The translations under genes were made by a program, and so were the position numbers. Of a stretch of 40,237 nt of DNA, positions 94 to 31,317 are shown piece after piece. The notes under the pieces were generated by a model that saw nothing but the letters and a program-made list of their open reading frames with translations, was not told the DNA's origin and did not search any database. Numbering within the stretch: the first letter of the stretch is position 1; the number at the start of each line of letters is the position of its first letter. This DNA is from Candidatus Moranbacteria bacterium GW2011_GWE2_35_2- (GTDB lineage Bacteria > Patescibacteriota > Minisyncoccia > Moranbacterales > UBA9337): positions 1,470 through 41,706 of the forward strand of contig LBQD01000004.1 of NCBI GenBank assembly GCA_000990585.1. Reading direction: 5' to 3'.

Positions 94-183
94 TGGCGGA
101 GAGGGGGGGATTCGAACTCCCGGTACCCTTTCGAGTACACCGCATTTCGAGTGCGGCCCATTCGACCACTCTGGCACCTCTCC
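94..183 (-). tRNA. tRNA-Ser(CGA), CCA encoded
   Basis: Reverse complement GGAGAGGTGCCAGAGTGGTCGAATGGGCCGCACTCGAAATGCGGTGTACTC...GGTTCGAATCC-like T-arm...CCTCTCCGCCA; 7-bp acceptor stem, long variable arm, CGA anticodon. Confidence 0.95.
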
Positions 184-381
184 ATAAATTGTATAGCCGT
201 AAATATATACCTTGTCCCTTTCTACCACTGAATCCACCTTTGGCGGACTGGCACCTCTCCATAAATATAAAAATATAGTATTAACATATATTTGGCAATA
301 CGGCGCTTTGTTTTTTTGTCTTTTTGTTGTAAAATAAAAACGTGTGGAAATATTAAAATTGCATGATATTTTAAAAAAGAA

Positions 382-421
382 TTTTGTTTTTATAAAAATC
401 ATGATTCTTATAAAAACAAAA
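382..421. repeat. 40-bp near-perfect palindrome upstream of the MTase gene
   Basis: TTTTGTTTTTATAAAAATCA|TGATTCTTATAAAAACAAAA; one mismatched pair. Confidence 0.7.
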
Positions 422-430
422 AACAAAAAA

Positions 431-985
431 ATGGAAGAAGAAAGAAAATATATAGCTGGTAAATTTGCTGATCCGATGGAAACAATCAATGAAATAGATG
501 TGAAAAAAGGAGATGTTATGGCGGATTTTGGTTGCGGAGCAGGTTTTTTTTCATTGCCCTTTGCCAAAAAAGTTGGAGAAGAAGGAAAAGTTTATGCTTT
601 GGATGTGTTGTCTTCAGCGCTTGAGGCGGTAGAAAGTGAGGCAAAAGCAAACGGAATTTCTAATATCATTACCAAAAGAGTGAATTTAGAATTAGAAAAA
701 GGATCGAAGCTGGATGATGAAAGCGTGGACTGGGTTGTGATGAAAAATATTCTTTTTCAAAACAAAGATAAAGATATTATTATAAGAGAGGCTTATCGCA
801 TTTTGAAGAAAAATGGAAGAGCATTGATTATGGAATGGGATAGCGGGAATTCTTTTATCGGTCCCGACCGAAAACTTCGAATTTCTGAGGAAGAATTGGA
901 TGCAATGGTGGAAAAAGGCGGATTCATTTTGGAAAAAAAAATAAAAGCGGGAGATTTTCATTATATGTTGATTGCTGTTAAATAA
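431..985 (+). CDS. class I SAM-dependent methyltransferase
   Basis: VMADFGCGAGFFSLPFA motif I, YALDVLSSALE; start trimmed from ORF 344 to MEEERKYIAGKF. Confidence 0.8.
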   Translation: MEEERKYIAGKFADPMETINEIDVKKGDVMADFGCGAGFFSLPFAKKVGEEGKVYALDVLSSALEAVESEAKANGISNIITKRVNLELEKGSKLDDESVDWVVMKNILFQNKDKDIIIREAYRILKKNGRALIMEWDSGNSFIGPDRKLRISEEELDAMVEKGGFILEKKIKAGDFHYMLIAVK

Positions 986-989
986 AAAA

Positions 990-2399
990 ATGAAAACAAA
1001 AATAAAAAAAATAATTTCAATATTTATTTTGATAAGCAGTGTTTTTTTGTTTTCCGGATGCGGAAATAATAATAATTCTCCAAAGTATCAGGTGGATTTG
1101 GAAATATGGGGTCTTTTTGACGATAGTTCAATTTTTGGTGAAATAATAAGTGATTATGAAAAAGTCAATCCTTTGGTGGGAAAAATAACCTATCGAAAAA
1201 TGACACAAGATAATTATAAAAAAGAACTTATAAACGCGATGGCGGAGGGAAACGGTCCGGATATTTTTTTGATGAATAACGCTGATCTTTATTTTTTCAA
1301 AAATAAAATCGAGTCGGCTCCGGAAAACATTTTTTCTTTGAGTGAATTTTCTTCCAATTTTGTTGATGTGGCGAAGGATGACTTTGTTGCGGATGGAAGA
1401 ATATACGGAGCACCACTAAGTGTCGATTCAATGCAGCTTTTCTATAATAAAGATATTTTTAACTTCAATGGAATATCACTGCCACCTGAAACTTGGAATG
1501 ATTTTGCGGATGTTTCCAGAAAACTTACAAAAATAGACAGTAAAGGAGAGATCATACAAGCGGGAACGGCAATGGGAACCGCCTATAACGTTAACCGCGC
1601 TTCGGATATTTTAGGATTGTTGATGCTTCAAAATAAAGTGAAACTTCCAACTGTTCAAGATTCGCAAATAAACTTAAATATGATAAATGTTGCGGAAAAT
1701 GGAAGAGAAAACAGTGCCCGTAGCGCTTTTGGATTTTATACGCAATTTGCTTCGATAAGCTCTCCTTTTTATACGTGGAACAGGGATATGCATTATTCTA
1801 TTGATGCTTTTGCTGAGGGAAGGGCTGCGATGATGTTTAATTATTCGTGGAATATAGATACTATAAAAAGCAAAAATTCAAAATTGAATTTTGCGGTGTC
1901 TCAAATTCCACAATATGAAAATTCGCTTCCGGTAGGGTATGCTAATTATTGGGGATTTGCGGTAAATAAGAATAAGCAGATAAAAATTTCTCCGACTGGA
2001 GGCGGAAAAGATATGGTAGTTAATAATGATATGCGAGTCCATGAGTCTTGGCAATTTATTAAGTTTTTGACGACAAAAAATAACGGATCTTTTAATGTGG
2101 TTCATGCTACTTCGGGAGAAATTAAATCTTTTCCAACCAGCATTGATCCGGCGAAAATATATTTAGAGAAAACCAATAAGCCGGCTGCCAGACGCGACTT
2201 GATTGATGTTCAGCAGGCTAATCCTACAATAAAACCTTTTGTATTAGGAAATTTGATTGCCAAAAGTTGGTATCAACCAGACACTGAAAGTGTTGATGCA
2301 ATATTATTAGACGCGATAGATTCAATCAATAAAGGCGATTCCAATATCGATCAAGCATTGAAGTTGGCAAACACTCGAATTGAACAATTAAAAAAATAA
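990..2399 (+). CDS. ABC-type (sugar-like) extracellular solute-binding lipoprotein
   Basis: Lipobox signal MKTKIKKIISIFILISSVFLFSGCGNN; YGAPLSVDSMQLFYNKDIF, PETWNDFADVSRKLT typical of family 1 SBPs. Confidence 0.85.
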   Translation: MKTKIKKIISIFILISSVFLFSGCGNNNNSPKYQVDLEIWGLFDDSSIFGEIISDYEKVNPLVGKITYRKMTQDNYKKELINAMAEGNGPDIFLMNNADLYFFKNKIESAPENIFSLSEFSSNFVDVAKDDFVADGRIYGAPLSVDSMQLFYNKDIFNFNGISLPPETWNDFADVSRKLTKIDSKGEIIQAGTAMGTAYNVNRASDILGLLMLQNKVKLPTVQDSQINLNMINVAENGRENSARSAFGFYTQFASISSPFYTWNRDMHYSIDAFAEGRAAMMFNYSWNIDTIKSKNSKLNFAVSQIPQYENSLPVGYANYWGFAVNKNKQIKISPTGGGKDMVVNNDMRVHESWQFIKFLTTKNNGSFNVVHATSGEIKSFPTSIDPAKIYLEKTNKPAARRDLIDVQQANPTIKPFVLGNLIAKSWYQPDTESVDAILLDAIDSINKGDSNIDQALKLANTRIEQLKK

Positions 2400-2404
2400 A
2401 CCCA

Positions 2405-3475
2405 ATGAAAAAAAACAGACTAATTAATTTTCTTCTTTTGTTGCCCGTTTTATTTTCTCCTTTGGCAACAAAAGCGGCTCTTGTTCCTTGTGGAACGAGT
2501 GAGCATCCGGAAGTGTGCACATTGTGTCATTTTATTGTGGGAATAAAAAATATCATTGATTGGGGAATGGGAATTTTGACTTTTGTGGCAATTGGCGCGA
2601 TTGTTTTGGGCGGAATTTTTTATATTATCTCTGCCGGAAATCAAGAAATGATGAAAAAAGCCAAAACCATTATTATTCAAACATTAACCGGATTTGCGAT
2701 TGTTTTGGGAGCGTGGTTGATTGTTACGTATTCGATGTATATTATAGGATCTTCCAATAGAGACGGGGTTATGCGTACTGATGGCGCATGGTATGAATTT
2801 ACCTGTGATACCGTTTCTAACCAAGCGGCTATCGATATTGGAAGTATTTCTACTTCTACAACTACTTCTCCAACATCTTCTACGGTAGCATCAGCGGCGG
2901 TGGATTCTAGTGGAGATTGTCTTAATGCGGCAATGCCAGGAGCGCAAACTTGTACCGGATATTCTTGTATTTCAACTTGCGGAAGTATTTCTAGTTATGT
3001 GTCTGCGATTTCTTCCGCATCTTCCTCCTATAATGTAAGTGAAAATCTTATTCGAGGAGTTATCTGTCGAGAATCATCTGGAAATACAAACGCAATAAAA
3101 AATGAATCCGACGGAACAATGTCGTGTGGCTTAATGCAGGTTAATGTAGATACACAGGCTGAATGTGAGTATTTAACAGAACATCCGGCGGAAAATATTA
3201 TGCAAGGGACGGCAAGTTTGAGTGCAAGGATTGCACAAGCGCAAAAAACCATGGATTCGCATGGATATAATACAGTGGAAGTGGAGGAGATGGCAGCAGC
3301 AGCATATAATTGTTGCGCCAATGGAGAAGATCCGAATTCTCCGAGTAATGATTGCACGGCGGCAAATGATTGGGGATTGGTTCCAAAGTGGGCGTGTCCT
3401 ATTGATCCGGGAACGAGTGAGTTCAATATGTGCGCGGTCAAGGATTATGCTTGCAGTGTCGGATCATGTGAATAA
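2405..3475 (+). CDS. VirB2/TrbC-like pilin domain fused to Cys-rich lytic transglycosylase-like domain
   Basis: Signal peptide, two TM helices with YIISAGNQEMMKKAK, Ser/Thr linker, then VICRESSGNTNAIKN...SCGLMQVNVDTQ resembling the SLT/VirB1 catalytic motif. Confidence 0.75.
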   Translation: MKKNRLINFLLLLPVLFSPLATKAALVPCGTSEHPEVCTLCHFIVGIKNIIDWGMGILTFVAIGAIVLGGIFYIISAGNQEMMKKAKTIIIQTLTGFAIVLGAWLIVTYSMYIIGSSNRDGVMRTDGAWYEFTCDTVSNQAAIDIGSISTSTTTSPTSSTVASAAVDSSGDCLNAAMPGAQTCTGYSCISTCGSISSYVSAISSASSSYNVSENLIRGVICRESSGNTNAIKNESDGTMSCGLMQVNVDTQAECEYLTEHPAENIMQGTASLSARIAQAQKTMDSHGYNTVEVEEMAAAAYNCCANGEDPNSPSNDCTAANDWGLVPKWACPIDPGTSEFNMCAVKDYACSVGSCE

Positions 3476-3495
3476 TAGAAGATATTAAAATTTTT

Positions 3496-3783
3496 ATGTT
3501 TGAAATTGGAAATAAAATTATTCATACGGCACAGGCGGGAGTGATTTCGGATGCGCCGGGGCTGGCACAGATCGGAGGAAATATTCTGAATTTTTTATTG
3601 TCTATTGTTGGAATTTTTGTTATAATCAGCTTAGTAATTTCCGGAGTAATGTATTTGACATCGGCAGGAAATGAAACTCAAATTGAGAAAGCAAAAAAAA
3701 CAGCATTTTATTCTGTAGTGGGGATTATTACGGCGCTGGGTGCGATGCTGATTGTGAGACAAATTGGAATTTTTTTCAAATAA
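3496..3783 (+). CDS. small T4SS pilin-like (VirB2/TrbC-like) membrane protein
   Basis: Two hydrophobic segments around YLTSAGNETQIEKAKKTAFYSVVGIITALGA. Confidence 0.75.
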   Translation: MFEIGNKIIHTAQAGVISDAPGLAQIGGNILNFLLSIVGIFVIISLVISGVMYLTSAGNETQIEKAKKTAFYSVVGIITALGAMLIVRQIGIFFK

Positions 3784-3837
3784 AAGGTTGAAAATTAAAA
3801 TAGAAAATAAAAATTAAAAAAGAATGGAGGTGAGAAT

Positions 3838-4200
3838 ATGAAAAATGCAATTAAGAAAGCGGTTTATGGAGCGGCTTCATCGGCTCTTTTGCTTCCGGTA
3901 ATGGCTTTGGCTCAATTTGACCCGCCATCCGGAGCGGCTACCGGTCTGCCTGAGTCGACAATATATGGTATTGTTGAAAATATTATGTATTGGCTTCTCG
4001 GATTGGTTGGTATTGCTGGAGTTATCGGATTTGCGATTTCCGGTATTATGTACCTTACTTCAGCCGGAGATGATGATAGAATGGGAACAGCCAAGAAGGC
4101 TATGATATATTCGATTATTGGTGTGATTGTGGCATTGGTTGGTTTGATCGCCCTTACAGCTATTCGAAGTATGTTGGGAGGAAGCAACACCCAATTTTAG
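3838..4200 (+). CDS. small T4SS pilin-like protein with signal peptide
   Basis: SD GGAGGTGA; signal peptide; IMYLTSAGDDDRMGTAKKAMIYSIIGVIVALVGL. Confidence 0.8.
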   Translation: MKNAIKKAVYGAASSALLLPVMALAQFDPPSGAATGLPESTIYGIVENIMYWLLGLVGIAGVIGFAISGIMYLTSAGDDDRMGTAKKAMIYSIIGVIVALVGLIALTAIRSMLGGSNTQF

Positions 4201-4219
4201 TTTTAAGGAAAAAATATTC

Positions 4220-4252
4220 AAAAAACAGATTCATTTTGTGAATCTGTTTTTT
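4220..4252 (+). terminator. intrinsic terminator within pilin array
   Basis: AAAAAACAGATTCA-TTTTG-TGAATCTGTTTTTTT. Confidence 0.8.
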
Positions 4253-4279
4253 TGTGAATTTTTTGGATTATGTTATAAT
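4252..4279 (+). promoter_or_regulatory. candidate sigma70-type promoter
   Basis: TTGTGA-16 bp-TATAAT directly after the terminator and before the next pilin gene. Confidence 0.5.
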
Positions 4280-4317
4280 TACGACAGTACAAATTCTTTA
4301 TAATTAAATTAAAAAAA

Positions 4318-4683
4318 ATGAAAAGTAAAATCAAAAAAATTGTGTTGGGAGTTGTAGTTTCTTTTTCGGCATCGCCTTTGATTGCATTGGCGCAATGGAA
4401 TGCGGGATTGGCTAACGCTCAACAATCCGGTCTTCCGTGGGATAACATAGCAAGTATTATCGGAAATATAATGTTTTGGATACTTAGCTTAGTTGGGGTA
4501 GTTGCGATTATCGGATTTGCGATTTCAGGACTTATGTATTTGACTTCTGCCGGGGATGACGATCAGATCAAAAAAGCCAAAAATGCTATGAAAAATTCCA
4601 TTATTGGTGTTATCGTTGCCTTGGTAGGTTTAGTGGTAATTTATGCGGTTAATAATATGTTGGGCGGAATGTCTGATTTTTAA
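4318..4683 (+). CDS. small T4SS pilin-like protein with signal peptide
   Basis: LMYLTSAGDDDQIKKAKNAMKNSIIGVIVALVGLVVI. Confidence 0.8.
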   Translation: MKSKIKKIVLGVVVSFSASPLIALAQWNAGLANAQQSGLPWDNIASIIGNIMFWILSLVGVVAIIGFAISGLMYLTSAGDDDQIKKAKNAMKNSIIGVIVALVGLVVIYAVNNMLGGMSDF

Positions 4684-4684
4684 T

Positions 4685-5092
4685 ATGAAAACAAAAATAA
4701 TTATAAATTCGATTGTTTCCTTGATGATGGTTTTTGTGTTTTTGAATGTGCAGGCCGCTCCGAATTGCAGTGCCACTCCCGGATTTGTTCTTGATCCTTC
4801 CGGAGTTTGCGTGCCGAGTGCCACCGGATTACCTGATCCGGTCGGAAACGATCCTGTGGCAACTATTTTGATTAATGTGATGCAATGGCTTTTGGGAAGC
4901 TTTGGAGTCGTAGCGATAATCGCTTTTGCTATTTCTGGATTGCAATATATGCTGGCGGCGGGAAATGACAACGTTATGGAAAAGGCCAAGCGGAATATGC
5001 TCTATTCGATTATCGGAGTGGCGGTAGGTTTGGCGGGACTTTTGATTGTTATAGCTATCAATAATATGCTTGCGGGGGGATCAACTTTTTAA
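4685..5092 (+). CDS. small T4SS pilin-like protein with Cys-containing N-terminus
   Basis: LQYMLAAGNDNVMEKAKRNMLYSIIGVAVGLAGLLIVIAINNML; start trimmed to 4685. Confidence 0.8.
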   Translation: MKTKIIINSIVSLMMVFVFLNVQAAPNCSATPGFVLDPSGVCVPSATGLPDPVGNDPVATILINVMQWLLGSFGVVAIIAFAISGLQYMLAAGNDNVMEKAKRNMLYSIIGVAVGLAGLLIVIAINNMLAGGSTF

Positions 5093-5102
5093 TTACAAAA
5101 AA

Positions 5103-6077
5103 ATGAAAAGTAATAAAATATTTTTCGGTTTAAGAGAGAAGATAATAATTTTTTCTTTTTTAATGTTGGGTTTGGTGAATTTCGGGGTTTCAAGCGTGCT
5201 GGCAACAACTGTGCAATGCAGTTCTGCTAGTGGAGTTTGTTCGGTACAAGGAGGAAGTGGATGCCCTCTTGGATCAACGGTTATTTCGGGTATTATATGT
5301 GACGAAGGAGAGGCGTGCTGTACAGCTCCTCCGCAGCTGGTTTGTTGTCAAATTAGCACAGATACTTGCGCGGAAAATACTTCCGGACTATGTCCAGGAA
5401 GTATTATTCCAATTCCCGGTTCTTGCTCGGAAGTTTCAACTTGTCCACAGTATACGTCGCCTGATGTTTCTGATCCGACTGGTTCTGATCCTGGATCGAC
5501 CGATGTTTCTGATCCGACAACTCCCACATCTTCTGCAGGTTGCGCAGATGGATCGATTTGTTTTACTTCTCCTTTGGCATTTACAACGGTTGAGGGCGTG
5601 CTGGGCAGTATTTTGAGTACTTTGCAAGGAATTATCGTTTTGATTTCAATCGTTTTTATTGTGATTGGAGCAGTGATGTATATTATATCCTCCGGCAATG
5701 ATGATATGATAAAAAAAGCGAAAAACGCGATTACAGCGGCAATGATCGGGCTGGCGATTGGAATCGCGGCACCATCGTTTCTCAAAGAAATTGCGACAAT
5801 TTTAGGATGGGGAGATGATGATATTAATAATCCTGAGGTTAGCGGCGCTCTCACTTTGGCGCAAATCGCAACCAACGCTTTGGATTTTCTTCTTGCGATT
5901 GTCGGTGTTTTGGGAATTATTATGCTGGTAATCGGAGGATCGATGTATTTGACTTCAGCGGGTGATGAAAAGAAAATCGATACTGCTAAATCAATCACTA
6001 AGTGGGCGATTATCGGAATTGCAGTAGCCTTGGCGGCATTGGTAATCGTGCGCCAGATCTCCAGATTCTTTGTGTAA
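5103..6077 (+). CDS. Cys-rich protein with two tandem pilin-like domains
   Basis: MYIISSGNDDMIKKAKNAITAAMIGLAIGIA and MYLTSAGDEKKIDTAKSITKWAIIGIAVALAA; Cys-rich N-term and DVSDPT...STDVSDPT linker repeat. Confidence 0.75.
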   Translation: MKSNKIFFGLREKIIIFSFLMLGLVNFGVSSVLATTVQCSSASGVCSVQGGSGCPLGSTVISGIICDEGEACCTAPPQLVCCQISTDTCAENTSGLCPGSIIPIPGSCSEVSTCPQYTSPDVSDPTGSDPGSTDVSDPTTPTSSAGCADGSICFTSPLAFTTVEGVLGSILSTLQGIIVLISIVFIVIGAVMYIISSGNDDMIKKAKNAITAAMIGLAIGIAAPSFLKEIATILGWGDDDINNPEVSGALTLAQIATNALDFLLAIVGVLGIIMLVIGGSMYLTSAGDEKKIDTAKSITKWAIIGIAVALAALVIVRQISRFFV

Positions 6078-7781: not shown

Positions 7782-7894
7782 CCCCGCAAAATCGCTTTGC
7801 GATCGCGGGGTACGGCCCCTTGAAATCGCTTTGCGATCGCGGGGTATGGTCTCTTGAAACCGCTTTGCGATCGCGGGGTATGGTCTCTTGAAAC
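7782..7894. repeat. hairpin unit plus three tandem 34-bp repeats
   Basis: CGCTTTGCGATCGCGGGGTAYGGYCYCTTGAAAY at 7793, 7827 and 7861; CCCCGC-AAA-ATCGC-TTT-GCGAT-C-GCGGGG at 7782-7810. Confidence 0.9.
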
Positions 7895-16451: not shown

Positions 16452-17519
16452 ATGAAAGTAAAAAGTTCTCCTAATGTGTGGAGAAAAAAGAAAGAAGAAT
16501 ATGATGTTGAAAATCTGAAATTATGCAGAGAAATCAGATCTTCTTTTGATTACCTGATTCATCTTATTGAGAAAAACAAATCTACTTATTTTTCTGCATT
16601 AAGAAAAATGGTAAAGAAAAGAAAATGTGAATTTGGAGGAAAAATCTCCTTGAAAGAAGGTAGAAATAAAAAATATTTTTATCACTTCAATTTCCTGATG
16701 TGCATCAGGAAAGAGTTGGAAATAATTTCAAGTGAGAATATCCCTCTGAAAGTGCTTGATGACGTGGATGTTATGAATATAACAATTAGTTATATTCATG
16801 AAAGAATATCTGATTTGTATTTGGCGAATCTCAATTTGATAAAAAGAGTTGCTAGTAGGTATTCTGATGAAGATCTTTTTCTTTTTAGTGATTTGATCGC
16901 AGAGGGTTTTTCTGGAATTCAAAAAGCTGCGATTTGTTTTGATGAAATTGACGGAGGGGCAAAATTTTCCACTTTTGCTATTTGGTGGATAAAACAATCA
17001 ATAGCTGACTCAATGAAGAGCAAATATGGCAATCTGATTAGAAAGCCATCACATGTTTTTGATAGGAAAAGTTTCTTGAAAAAGAAAATTGCCATATTGC
17101 TGGAAAATGGAGAGCCTGCTTCGTATGAAGCTTTATCCGAAATTACCAAAATGTCTTTAAAAAAAATTAAGGAGGCCTTGCAATTAAGAGAAATTTCTTT
17201 GGATATGCTTTTTGGCGACGATGGGGAATTGATTGAATTTATTCCTTCAGACGCTCCTAATCCAGAAGAATATTTCACTCAAAGTAGCGCAGAAGAGGCA
17301 GTCTGTAAATTGATAGGTTCTTTAAATAAAGAAAGGGATAGAATTGTTATCTCTATGAGATTTGGAATCAACGGGTATAAGCGTGAACATACTCTTAAGG
17401 AGATAGGTGAAAGATTTAATTTAACCCGTGAACGCATTCGACAGATTGAGGCGGGTATATTGAGGACGCTTCACTTTAAGGCGAATGCAATGGGATTAGA
17501 TTTAGTAACAGTTTTTTAA
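16452..17519 (+). CDS. RNA polymerase sigma-70 family factor (RpoD/RpoH-like regions 2-4, divergent region 2)
   Basis: SD AGGAGGG; FSTFAIWWIKQSIADSM; TLKEIGERFNLTRERIRQIEAGILRTLH. Confidence 0.9.
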   Translation: MKVKSSPNVWRKKKEEYDVENLKLCREIRSSFDYLIHLIEKNKSTYFSALRKMVKKRKCEFGGKISLKEGRNKKYFYHFNFLMCIRKELEIISSENIPLKVLDDVDVMNITISYIHERISDLYLANLNLIKRVASRYSDEDLFLFSDLIAEGFSGIQKAAICFDEIDGGAKFSTFAIWWIKQSIADSMKSKYGNLIRKPSHVFDRKSFLKKKIAILLENGEPASYEALSEITKMSLKKIKEALQLREISLDMLFGDDGELIEFIPSDAPNPEEYFTQSSAEEAVCKLIGSLNKERDRIVISMRFGINGYKREHTLKEIGERFNLTRERIRQIEAGILRTLHFKANAMGLDLVTVF

Positions 17520-17523
17520 TGCG

Positions 17524-17550
17524 GGTGTGTAATTTTGCACACCTTTTTTT
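17524..17550 (+). terminator. intrinsic terminator
   Basis: GGTGTG-TAATTTTG-CACACC-TTTTTTT. Confidence 0.8.
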
Positions 17551-17644
17551 ATTTGTTAAAAATAAAAATCGGCAGCGGTCCAAATAGGACTCTGCCGATT
17601 TGTGGATAAAATTTTGGAGAAATGGTAGAATAAAAAGGTAAAAA

Positions 17645-18127
17645 ATGAATAAAGCAAAAATGAACAAAATAAAACTTTTCATTTCGATTGCCATCCCTCT
17701 TTTTGCCGGATTTTTGGGATCAATTTTCACCAACACTTCTGTTTCAACTTGGTATCAGACGCTATCCGTGCCATCTCTTAATCCTCCCGGTTGGGTTTTT
17801 GGTCCGGTATGGACAGTATTGTATATTTTGATGGGAACAGCGCTGTATCGCGTGTGGAGGAAGAAAGAAATGGGGCTGGATATTTTTTGGGCAGTGTGGT
17901 TTTTTTTCGCGCAACTGTTTTTCAATATTGCATGGTCTCTTTTATTTTTTGGAATGGAAAATCCGATGCTGGCGCTGTGGGGAATTGGAATTTTGTGGAT
18001 TTTCATTTTTTTTAATGTTGTTGCTTTTTTTAAAGTTGACAAAAAATCCGCATGGTTAATGCTCCCATATCTTGCATGGACATCTTTTGCCGCCTATCTA
18101 AATTATGCAATTTTTGTTTTGAATTAA
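17645..18127 (+). CDS. TspO/MBR family protein
   Basis: WYQTLSVPSLNPPGWVFGPVWTVLYILMGTALY...FFNIAWSLLFFGMENP. Confidence 0.93.
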   Translation: MNKAKMNKIKLFISIAIPLFAGFLGSIFTNTSVSTWYQTLSVPSLNPPGWVFGPVWTVLYILMGTALYRVWRKKEMGLDIFWAVWFFFAQLFFNIAWSLLFFGMENPMLALWGIGILWIFIFFNVVAFFKVDKKSAWLMLPYLAWTSFAAYLNYAIFVLN

Positions 18128-18183
18128 AAAATAGGTTTACGTGTCTGAAAAGTATTTGTTCGGTTTTTATTGTGTATATTTTT

Positions 18184-18765
18184 ATGTTTATCCAAAAATG
18201 TGAAGGGAAAACCGATGAAGAGTTGGTGCGGATGGTTCTGGAAGACCATAATTTTTATGCGTGCTTAGTGGCAAGATATGAAGATAAACTGGCGCGGTAT
18301 ATTCGTAGAATTTCCGCTTCTTCCAAAGAAGATGTGGAAGATTTGTTGCAAGAAATTTTTATCGCCGCTTATCGGAATTTGAATGATTTTGATCAAGGTT
18401 TGAAATTTTCTTCTTGGATTTATCGTATTGCTCATAATAAGACCATTAGTAGTTGGAGAAAAACTAAAAGCCGTCCGCAGTTGGTGCATTCGGAAGAAGC
18501 TCAAGAATTGGTAAAAATCGTTTCCAGTGATGAGGACATGGCAAAAGATTTGGAAAAGAAATTTGATGCCAAACAGGTGGAAAAAATTTTATGGAAGATG
18601 AATGAAAAATATCGGGAAGTTTTGGTGCTTAAATTTCTTGAAGATAAAGATTATCAAGAAATTTCTGATATTTTGAAGAAACCGATGGGAACGGTAGGGA
18701 CGTTGATTAGACGTGCTAAAAATCATTTTCGGGGAATAGCCAAGAAGGAAAAAGTGGATTTATAA
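18184..18765 (+). CDS. ECF-type RNA polymerase sigma factor
   Basis: DVEDLLQEIFIAAYRNLNDFDQGLKFSSWIYRIAHNKTISSWRK; region 4 DYQEISDILKKPMGTVGTLIRRAK; start trimmed to 18184. Confidence 0.92.
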   Translation: MFIQKCEGKTDEELVRMVLEDHNFYACLVARYEDKLARYIRRISASSKEDVEDLLQEIFIAAYRNLNDFDQGLKFSSWIYRIAHNKTISSWRKTKSRPQLVHSEEAQELVKIVSSDEDMAKDLEKKFDAKQVEKILWKMNEKYREVLVLKFLEDKDYQEISDILKKPMGTVGTLIRRAKNHFRGIAKKEKVDL

Positions 18766-29971: not shown

Positions 29972-30129
29972 ATTTTATAGCTCAAAATTGCGATTTAGCT
30001 TCAATGGTTGTCCTACTGCAACTACTAGTACACACGCAACACCTTTTATCTTTCATAAACAAAATATTTCTTGGTTGAAAATGGTAGTAGATGGTATTAT
30101 TAAGATGCAAGAAGATAATTTTTTGGATT

Positions 30130-31317
30130 ATGGAAAACAAAATTATTAATACTTGGGTTGGAACTTTGATTTTGATCTCCTTGTCATCGGGAGTGGCTTT
30201 TGTGGCGATTGAAGGTAATAGTGATTTTTCTCCGGAATTTTCGCAAATGATTATAACCGCAAAAAAGAAGGTTGCCGAAGCGGTTCCTGTTTTGTTTCCT
30301 TCGCCACTGCCTCCTCCGCTTCCGCCGGACATTGAAAGAATGAAAAAACAGGGATGTGTGGCGGATGGACTCCTTTCCGGATTTGGAGGCGATACCAAGG
30401 AGATGATCAATGTGGTTAACCGGTCTGATTGCTATTATCTTCATCGCGCATTGGAAACATGGGCGGACAAGCCGGATTTTGAAAAGGCCAAAAAAATCAA
30501 GGCGAAAATTGAAAAAGATAATATCGTGTACGGAATGTTTATTGCCGAAGCTATTGGCACAAAAGTCCTTTACCGCTATCAAGATGAAGATCGCAAGTTT
30601 GATTTTGAAAAAATGTGTAAAAATGATCACAGTGATCATTGGAAAAAAAATATATGTATTCCTTCTTTTGATTCTGGGGAATATCGTAAATATTTGAAAT
30701 ATATTACTGAACAAGCAATGGATATGGGAATTCAAAGTTTTCTTTTTGGACAAATTTTTCTTCAAGAAACTTCCGATTTAGATAATCCAAGAATAACTGG
30801 AATAATTAGAGATATGAGAAAATATGCCGATTCCAAGAAAATGAAAATTGTGGTTGGAGCACAAACTAATGACATTACTAATGAAAAATATTTGCGCAAT
30901 TTTGATTTTATTGATGGCGGTGTGGGATTGTATTCCGACGGAACACTGGAAAACGGTCCGTGTTTTTCTCGCTGGTGGAAAAAGGACGGAGATTGGTGCT
31001 GGGCGCTTTTGTGGAACGACAAATTTGCCAAAAAAGCCAATAATGTTTTTTTGCATCTCGATTGGACGCCTCAAATTGGAGATGATATGAGTACTTTCGC
31101 TCGGATGGATGATGACAAGCGGAGAAAAACATTGCGGGATTTGCATGATTTTTTCACTTCCCAGGGAAAGGGTTTTATGCTGCCGATTCTTGCAGTGTTG
31201 CCGAAGGATAATGGCGGATGTTACGGAGAAAAAAAGAATTTTTATTCGCCTTCAAAAAAATATTCCTGCGACGACGAAAAGACGATTAACAATATCTTGA
31301 AAAAAGCTTGGCAATAA
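30130..31317 (+). CDS. large secreted/membrane-anchored protein, possible TIM-barrel (glycoside-hydrolase-like) fold
   Basis: N-terminal TM, Pro-rich linker, MDMGIQSFLFGQIFLQE, MKIVVGAQTNDI, FIDGGVGLYSDG, FLHLDWTPQ; family not recognised. Confidence 0.5.
   Translation: MENKIINTWVGTLILISLSSGVAFVAIEGNSDFSPEFSQMIITAKKKVAEAVPVLFPSPLPPPLPPDIERMKKQGCVADGLLSGFGGDTKEMINVVNRSDCYYLHRALETWADKPDFEKAKKIKAKIEKDNIVYGMFIAEAIGTKVLYRYQDEDRKFDFEKMCKNDHSDHWKKNICIPSFDSGEYRKYLKYITEQAMDMGIQSFLFGQIFLQETSDLDNPRITGIIRDMRKYADSKKMKIVVGAQTNDITNEKYLRNFDFIDGGVGLYSDGTLENGPCFSRWWKKDGDWCWALLWNDKFAKKANNVFLHLDWTPQIGDDMSTFARMDDDKRRKTLRDLHDFFTSQGKGFMLPILAVLPKDNGGCYGEKKNFYSPSKKYSCDDEKTINNILKKAWQ

Follow-up and report, generated by a model that had tools for sequence, protein, structure and literature searches.

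Predicted pilin–lytic transglycosylase fusion in a VirB2-type pilin array of a Candidatus Moranbacteria genome

Introduction

Tandem arrays of divergent VirB2-like pilin genes are an established feature of Patescibacteria. One report counts 441 such arrays, with 2-11 pilins each, across 383 assemblies; it gives an average identity of 25% and a link to VirB4, and also notes a VirB1 gap in this lineage (PMC12102498). In Southlakia epibionticum ML1, the one species tested, the type IV secretion system (T4SS) is essential, as is its array of six pilins (PMC12857230). The VirB1 proteins of Gram-positive systems are described as membrane-anchored with extracellular enzyme domains (PMC12857230), and what the T4SS does in Saccharibacteria has been called completely unknown (PMC11665869). 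This study describes an array of six pilin genes in Candidatus Moranbacteria bacterium GW2011_GWE2_35_2-, located at positions 2405-6077 of a 40,237-nucleotide stretch (the window) of contig LBQD01000004.1, assembly GCA_000990585.1. The first gene of the array is predicted to join a VirB2-type pilin to a lytic transglycosylase.

Results

The genome comprises 923 kb on six contigs, is 96.6% complete, and belongs to a tiny, probably host-dependent bacterium. Seven T4SS_pilin (PF18895) domains were found in six plus-strand open reading frames (ORFs) of the array, exactly where a first-pass annotation made from the letters had placed them (Table 1). The profile exceeded its Pfam cut-off in all six proteins according to hmmscan, with two domains in the last protein, and a genome-wide search recovered the seven array copies at E 8e-11 to 8e-8 together with an eighth copy on another contig. 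The seven domains share 24-62% pairwise identity (mean 36%), those of genes 3-5 being the most alike (48-62%). Gene 5 also matches PF04956 (TrbC/VIRB2) weakly, at 18.8 bits and below the cut-off of 27.9, and among 80 array pilins not of the gene-1 type (76 from relatives and 4 from the window) 21 match PF04956, the best at 8e-17. The identity as T4SS (VirB2/TrbC-type) pilins put forward in the first-pass annotation is supported, most directly by PF18895. Consistent with this family, the domains form a two-helix hairpin with a basic loop, which across 218 domains averages 3.0 lysine and arginine residues, compared with 1.4 outside the loop, and presumably faces the inner side of the membrane.

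Gene 1 is, as judged from its sequence, a fusion of a pilin hairpin with a C-terminal lytic transglycosylase (SLT) whose catalytic motifs are intact: the catalytic glutamate, G-x-M-Q and A-x-Y-N are invariant in an alignment of gene 1 with six homologues. In the AlphaFold model, of moderate overall confidence (pLDDT 64.6), two long helices (residues 40-75 and 80-116) form a hairpin; the linker that follows is of low confidence, and the SLT part is mostly confident. This part resembles MltE and the transglycosylase EtgA in Foldseek (E about 0.01, probability 1.00), and it gave no match in a sequence search of the PDB. Because the protein carries a signal peptide and a basic inter-helix loop, the positive-inside rule would place both of its ends, and hence the enzyme, on the outer side of the membrane. 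The SLT domain is fused to a T4SS pilin, and no other SLT domain was found in the genome, which suggests that it takes part in T4SS assembly; the most likely VirB1 equivalent in this system is gene 1. The first-pass annotation had described the window as otherwise free of T4SS genes, which overlooks the VirB1-like domain (PF01464) of gene 1. The fused domains that it mentioned are this SLT domain and, in gene 6, a second pilin together with a Cys-rich N-terminus; it missed the enzymatic nature of the gene 1 fusion.

Further T4SS components were located elsewhere in the genome. VirB4, the ATPase expected of a patescibacterial (MPF_FATA-like) T4SS, which the first-pass annotation had proposed to look for outside the window, is encoded on contig C2 and exceeds the relevant cut-offs (PF19044; NF045971 at 374 bits vs 325), and it is present in 124 of the 131 genomes of the order. 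The first-pass annotation thereby withstands the refutation that it had set for itself. Compared by VirB4, the nearest named records are Moranbacteria/Moraniibacteriota. VirB4 is adjoined by PrgI-like and TrsD-like proteins, and beside this core lie a LysM-CHAP protein and, at the place expected for VirB6, a large polytopic protein. A TraD/VirD4-type coupling ATPase (PF10412, 34.8 bits vs 20.5) is encoded on the same contig, far from VirB4, with the eighth pilin directly downstream of it. A search for the relaxase family PF03432 returned no match in the genome, other MOB classes lying outside that search.

Gene order in relatives connects the array to this core. In sister families, the same pilin types as those of the array adjoin virB4 (loci L054, L062, L068, L073 and L077). 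Four of these loci (L054, L062, L068 and L073) show the order methyltransferase (MT), solute-binding lipoprotein (SBP), pilin, double pilin, prgI, trsD and virB4, and L077 has only the double pilin between MT-SBP and prgI-trsD-virB4. A separate sister-family locus reads chap, VirB6-position gene, an unassigned gene, pilins and nusA (L056 and L063; parts in L049, L052 and L053). In the genome studied here, the pilins stand as a single array, flanked by MT-SBP and nusA, and the other genes follow one another in the order chap, VirB6-position gene, unassigned gene, prgI, trsD and virB4. This arrangement looks like the outcome of a single exchange between two pilin-bearing T4SS loci, which would explain a window lacking VirB4, and it gives the array a positional link to the T4SS.

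Conservation of the array extends across the order. PF18895 pilins occur in 36 of 37 genomes (own genome included) and are mostly clustered, so the array is not a chance arrangement. In a tree of 218 domains, whose few columns limit its resolution, the 6a type forms one clade (35/35 rows, SH-aLRT 95), the 6b type needs two changes, and all position labels together need 14 changes vs 92.5 when shuffled. Among genomes of the same family, each of gene 1, gene 2, 6a and 6b pairs with the pilin at the corresponding position wherever that pilin is present, and genes 3-5 show no such one-to-one sorting. The array therefore mixes pilin types that are fixed and apparently specialised with a group that varies. 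The earlier description of the copies as specialised subunits instead of recent duplicates accordingly holds for gene 1, gene 2, 6a and 6b, which keep identity and position, and does not extend to genes 3-5.

Within the order, 115 of 131 genomes carry the gene-1 type, recognised by a CTLC-type Cys motif ahead of the first helix, and so do 182 of 238 genomes sampled from the class. The tails of gene-1 orthologues are SLT, SLT_3, NlpC/P60, metallopeptidase-like, immunoglobulin-like (Ig-like) or absent. In the first locus set, long C-terminal tails were carried by 12 of 25 gene-1 proteins vs 5 of 162 pilins of other types (Fisher p 8e-9). Pfam assigned SLT to 7, SLT_3 to 3, NlpC/P60 to 3 and Ig-like to 2 of 65 tailed gene-1 proteins of the order (counts may overlap), and SLT_3 to 6, SLT to 3, Destabilase to 1 and a lectin-like domain to 1 of 41 from the class sample. 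Neither SLT nor NlpC/P60 appeared in any of the 80 pilins of other types, among the matches listed (25 of 34 families). When 147 gene-1 pilins were sorted by tail, 64 were enzyme-like, some by motif only, and the tail types required at least 66 changes on the poorly resolved tree of these pilins. Because long frames were partly favoured in choosing the sample, these tail counts do not measure prevalence. Such frequent exchange of enzymes between genera would fit a changing target, without proving it.

Several tail groups were compared with known folds. The tail group M15a has an invariant H...D...HxH pattern, and its PDB profile search returned Hedgehog N-domains only (E 0.03). For its confident model (pLDDT 91.6), Foldseek returned nothing significant, and over the full length a phage L-alanoyl-D-glutamate peptidase scored best (E 0.36, TM 0.45); the metallopeptidase-like assignment, not confirmed by fold, therefore remains a suggestion. 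For the tail group M15b, the PDB search gave no meaningful match. The tail group iLYS matches i-type lysozyme at E 0.16 only, beside the one Destabilase match of the class sample.

Within the array, gene 5 probably starts at ATG 4685, 1 bp past gene 4, and gene 6 at ATG 5103, 10 bp past gene 5. A consensus scan placed a strong hairpin between genes 3 and 4, with a promoter-like site behind it. The hairpin would fit separate control of gene 3, and comparable hairpins lie between pilin genes in several relatives (loci L043, L044, L050, L051, L066 and L067).

The array is bordered by MT and SBP on one side and by the housekeeping genes nusA-ppa-tig-clpP on the other. Throughout the order, MT and SBP (344-2399) show linkage to the pilins. 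A large serine recombinase (Resolvase, Recombinase and Zn-ribbon domains; L009:121-1479) is located at the end of contig C4, just upstream of the window, and next to it is a tRNA-Ser (window 94-183). Upstream of nusA is a tandem repeat with 3.1 copies of a 34-bp unit (7789-7893). Further along the window, two sigma-factor genes flank a TspO/MBR gene (16452-18765), and a 408-aa ORF (30091-31317) has no Pfam match at E 0.001.

Table 1. Location of the array genes, their domains and associated features (window positions unless a contig is named).
Feature	Position	Strand	Description and evidence
Class I methyltransferase (MT)	344..985	+	Upstream of SBP; NCBIfam methyltransferase matches; synteny
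Extracellular solute-binding lipoprotein (SBP)	990..2399 (ORF open from 972)	+	Directly upstream of array; PF13416 81.7 bits; synteny
Gene 1, 356 aa	2405..3475	+	Signal peptide, VPCG-x(n)-CTLC motif, pilin hairpin, linker, predicted C-terminal lytic transglycosylase
Gene 1 pilin hairpin	2516-2749 (residues 38-115)	+	PF18895 29.0 bits, cut-off 26.6
Gene 1 SLT domain	3008..3319 (residues 202-305)	+	PF01464 41.8 bits, cut-off 21.3, E 9e-11
Catalytic Glu223 of gene 1 SLT domain	3071-3073	+	
Gene 2, 95 aa	3496..3783	+	Short pilin without long signal peptide; PF18895 32.6 bits; conserved positional type
Gene 3, 120 aa	3838..4200	+	Variable, putative major pilin group; PF18895 40.3 bits; tree
Hairpin between genes 3 and 4	4220..4252	+	15 pairs, with T-run; consensus scan
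Promoter-like site behind this hairpin	4252-4279	+	Consensus scan
Gene 4, 121 aa	4318..4683	+	Variable, putative major pilin group; PF18895 39.2 bits
Gene 5	4685..5092 (probable start; ORF open from 4643)	+	Variable-group pilin; PF18895 34.2 bits
Gene 6	5103..6077 (probable start; ORF open from 5070)	+	Cys-rich N-terminus, two different pilin domains; two PF18895 stretches, 66.1 bits
Pilin domain 6a	5577-5807	+	First half of gene 6 double pilin
Pilin domain 6b	5844-6071	+	Second half of gene 6 double pilin
1273-aa protein without Pfam match, then TraD/VirD4-type ATPase and eighth pilin	L010:1433-9097, contig C2		Upstream of rpoB-like gene

Discussion

Combined, these results favour the interpretation that the genes of the array specify the VirB2-type pilins of a chromosomal T4SS, one for which no relaxase was detected, in a Moranbacteria-like (Paceibacteria) genome, with gene 1 as a pilin-anchored equivalent of VirB1; a probability of about 0.68 is assigned to this interpretation. 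The system would be split over several loci, with the pilins in the window and, on contig C2, the VirB4/TrsD-like/PrgI-like core as well as the coupling ATPase with the eighth pilin. Genes 3-5 may supply the bulk subunits of the filament and gene 6 a minor or platform subunit, and gene 1 would sit at the base or the tip. The subunits may assemble into mixed filaments or pores, as the first-pass annotation had suggested. The transglycosylase of gene 1, held on the outside of the membrane, would open peptidoglycan locally for passage of a filament that may serve contact with the host cell. The target of the enzyme could be the wall of the bacterium itself, as for VirB1, or the wall of the host.

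Several observations weigh against this interpretation. The array and VirB4 lie on different contigs in the genome itself, and the two proteins adjoining VirB4 score below their cut-offs (PrgI-like, 22.7 bits vs 27; TrsD-like, 32 bits vs 200). The protein in the VirB6 position has no profile match, and no TrbL match was found genome-wide. The LysM-CHAP protein beside the VirB4 core could be the VirB1 equivalent in place of gene 1. Additionally, an enzyme tail is missing from 39 of 147 gene-1 orthologues and is therefore not a fixed feature of the gene-1 type. Both the filament and the enzyme activity of the array products are predicted properties.

The copies might alternatively be redundant, tandem-amplified variants of one pilin, only some of them in use at a time, which would provide antigenic or host-range variation as proposed for the VirB2 proteins of Bartonella or Anaplasma. 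Antigenic variation has been proposed for patescibacterial arrays (PMC12102498), and it agrees with the high similarity of genes 3-5 and their failure to sort one to one between genomes. The retention of identity and position by genes 1, 2, 6a and 6b, seen in the single 6a clade and the small number of label changes, speaks against it, as does the presence of gene 1 in most genomes of the order. This explanation was rejected for genes 1, 2 and 6 but not for genes 3-5, and as an account of the whole array it is unlikely. Slightly less likely still is a non-filamentous membrane complex, such as a pore or an uptake platform working with the adjacent SBP, built from pilin-type hairpins. Its appeal lies in the order-wide linkage of the SBP to the array and in host uptake by patescibacterial T4SS, which PMC12857230 discusses as a possibility; it is countered by homology to T4SS pilins, including PF04956 TrbC/VirB2, and by co-conservation with VirB4.

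A far more improbable origin is a mobile conjugative element, of which the array would be a part or remnant. The serine recombinase at the nearby contig end would suit such an element, as would the match of PF18895 pilins to the mycoplasma pilin profile NF045849, which falls below its cut-off. The housekeeping neighbours of the array point the other way, and this reading was rejected because of the missing relaxase match (PF03432 being the class searched) and the conservation of the array across the order.

With the array taken as the pilins of a T4SS, the covalent link between a pilin and a peptidoglycan hydrolase would offer a concrete handle on the role of this system. The gene 1 fusion is a candidate for closing the VirB1 gap pointed out for this lineage in PMC12102498 and suggests how the filament crosses the wall, and a tail that changes enzyme class between genera is predicted to reflect which wall is cut. 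A more tentative proposal, which we consider possible and somewhat doubtful, is that the gene-1 pilin acts as a modular filament head, in which a conserved CTLC-type pilin presents, at the base or tip, a wall-cutting or wall-binding module that can be exchanged, and so fits one filament machine of ultrasmall bacteria to different host envelopes. Additionally, with fixed and variable pilins separated, antigenic variation and specialised parts become alternatives that can be tested gene by gene.

Comparison with known systems

The array shares with VirB2/TrbC pilins (PF04956) the two-helix hairpin with a basic loop, and part of the wider set of array pilins matches that family, whereas the copies in the window do so weakly or not at all. 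Pilin-like proteins of mycoplasma integrative and conjugative elements (NF045849, Mbov_0395 family) belong to the same hairpin family by profile, at up to 3.5e-10; the window, in contrast, scores below the NF045849 cut-off, and no PF03432 relaxase was found here. With the VirB2-like arrays described for Patescibacteria (PMC12102498, PMC12857230), the locus has in common tandem divergent PF18895 pilins, a VirB4-type system of the monoderm class and no detected relaxase, and it differs in the SLT fusion of gene 1, the double pilin of gene 6 and the position of the array away from virB4.

The gene 1 enzyme resembles VirB1 lytic transglycosylases, including the Gram-positive two-domain enzymes of TraG/PrgK type (PMC12857230), in its SLT motifs and its predicted location outside the membrane. 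Unlike these enzymes, its membrane anchor is predicted to be a VirB2-type pilin hairpin, and the pilin domain comes first. A pilin-hydrolase fusion was not found in the literature searched, which lay outside subscription papers and supplements. Within that literature, this kind of array is already known, and the joining of a VirB2-type pilin to a VirB1-type enzyme is a new twist.

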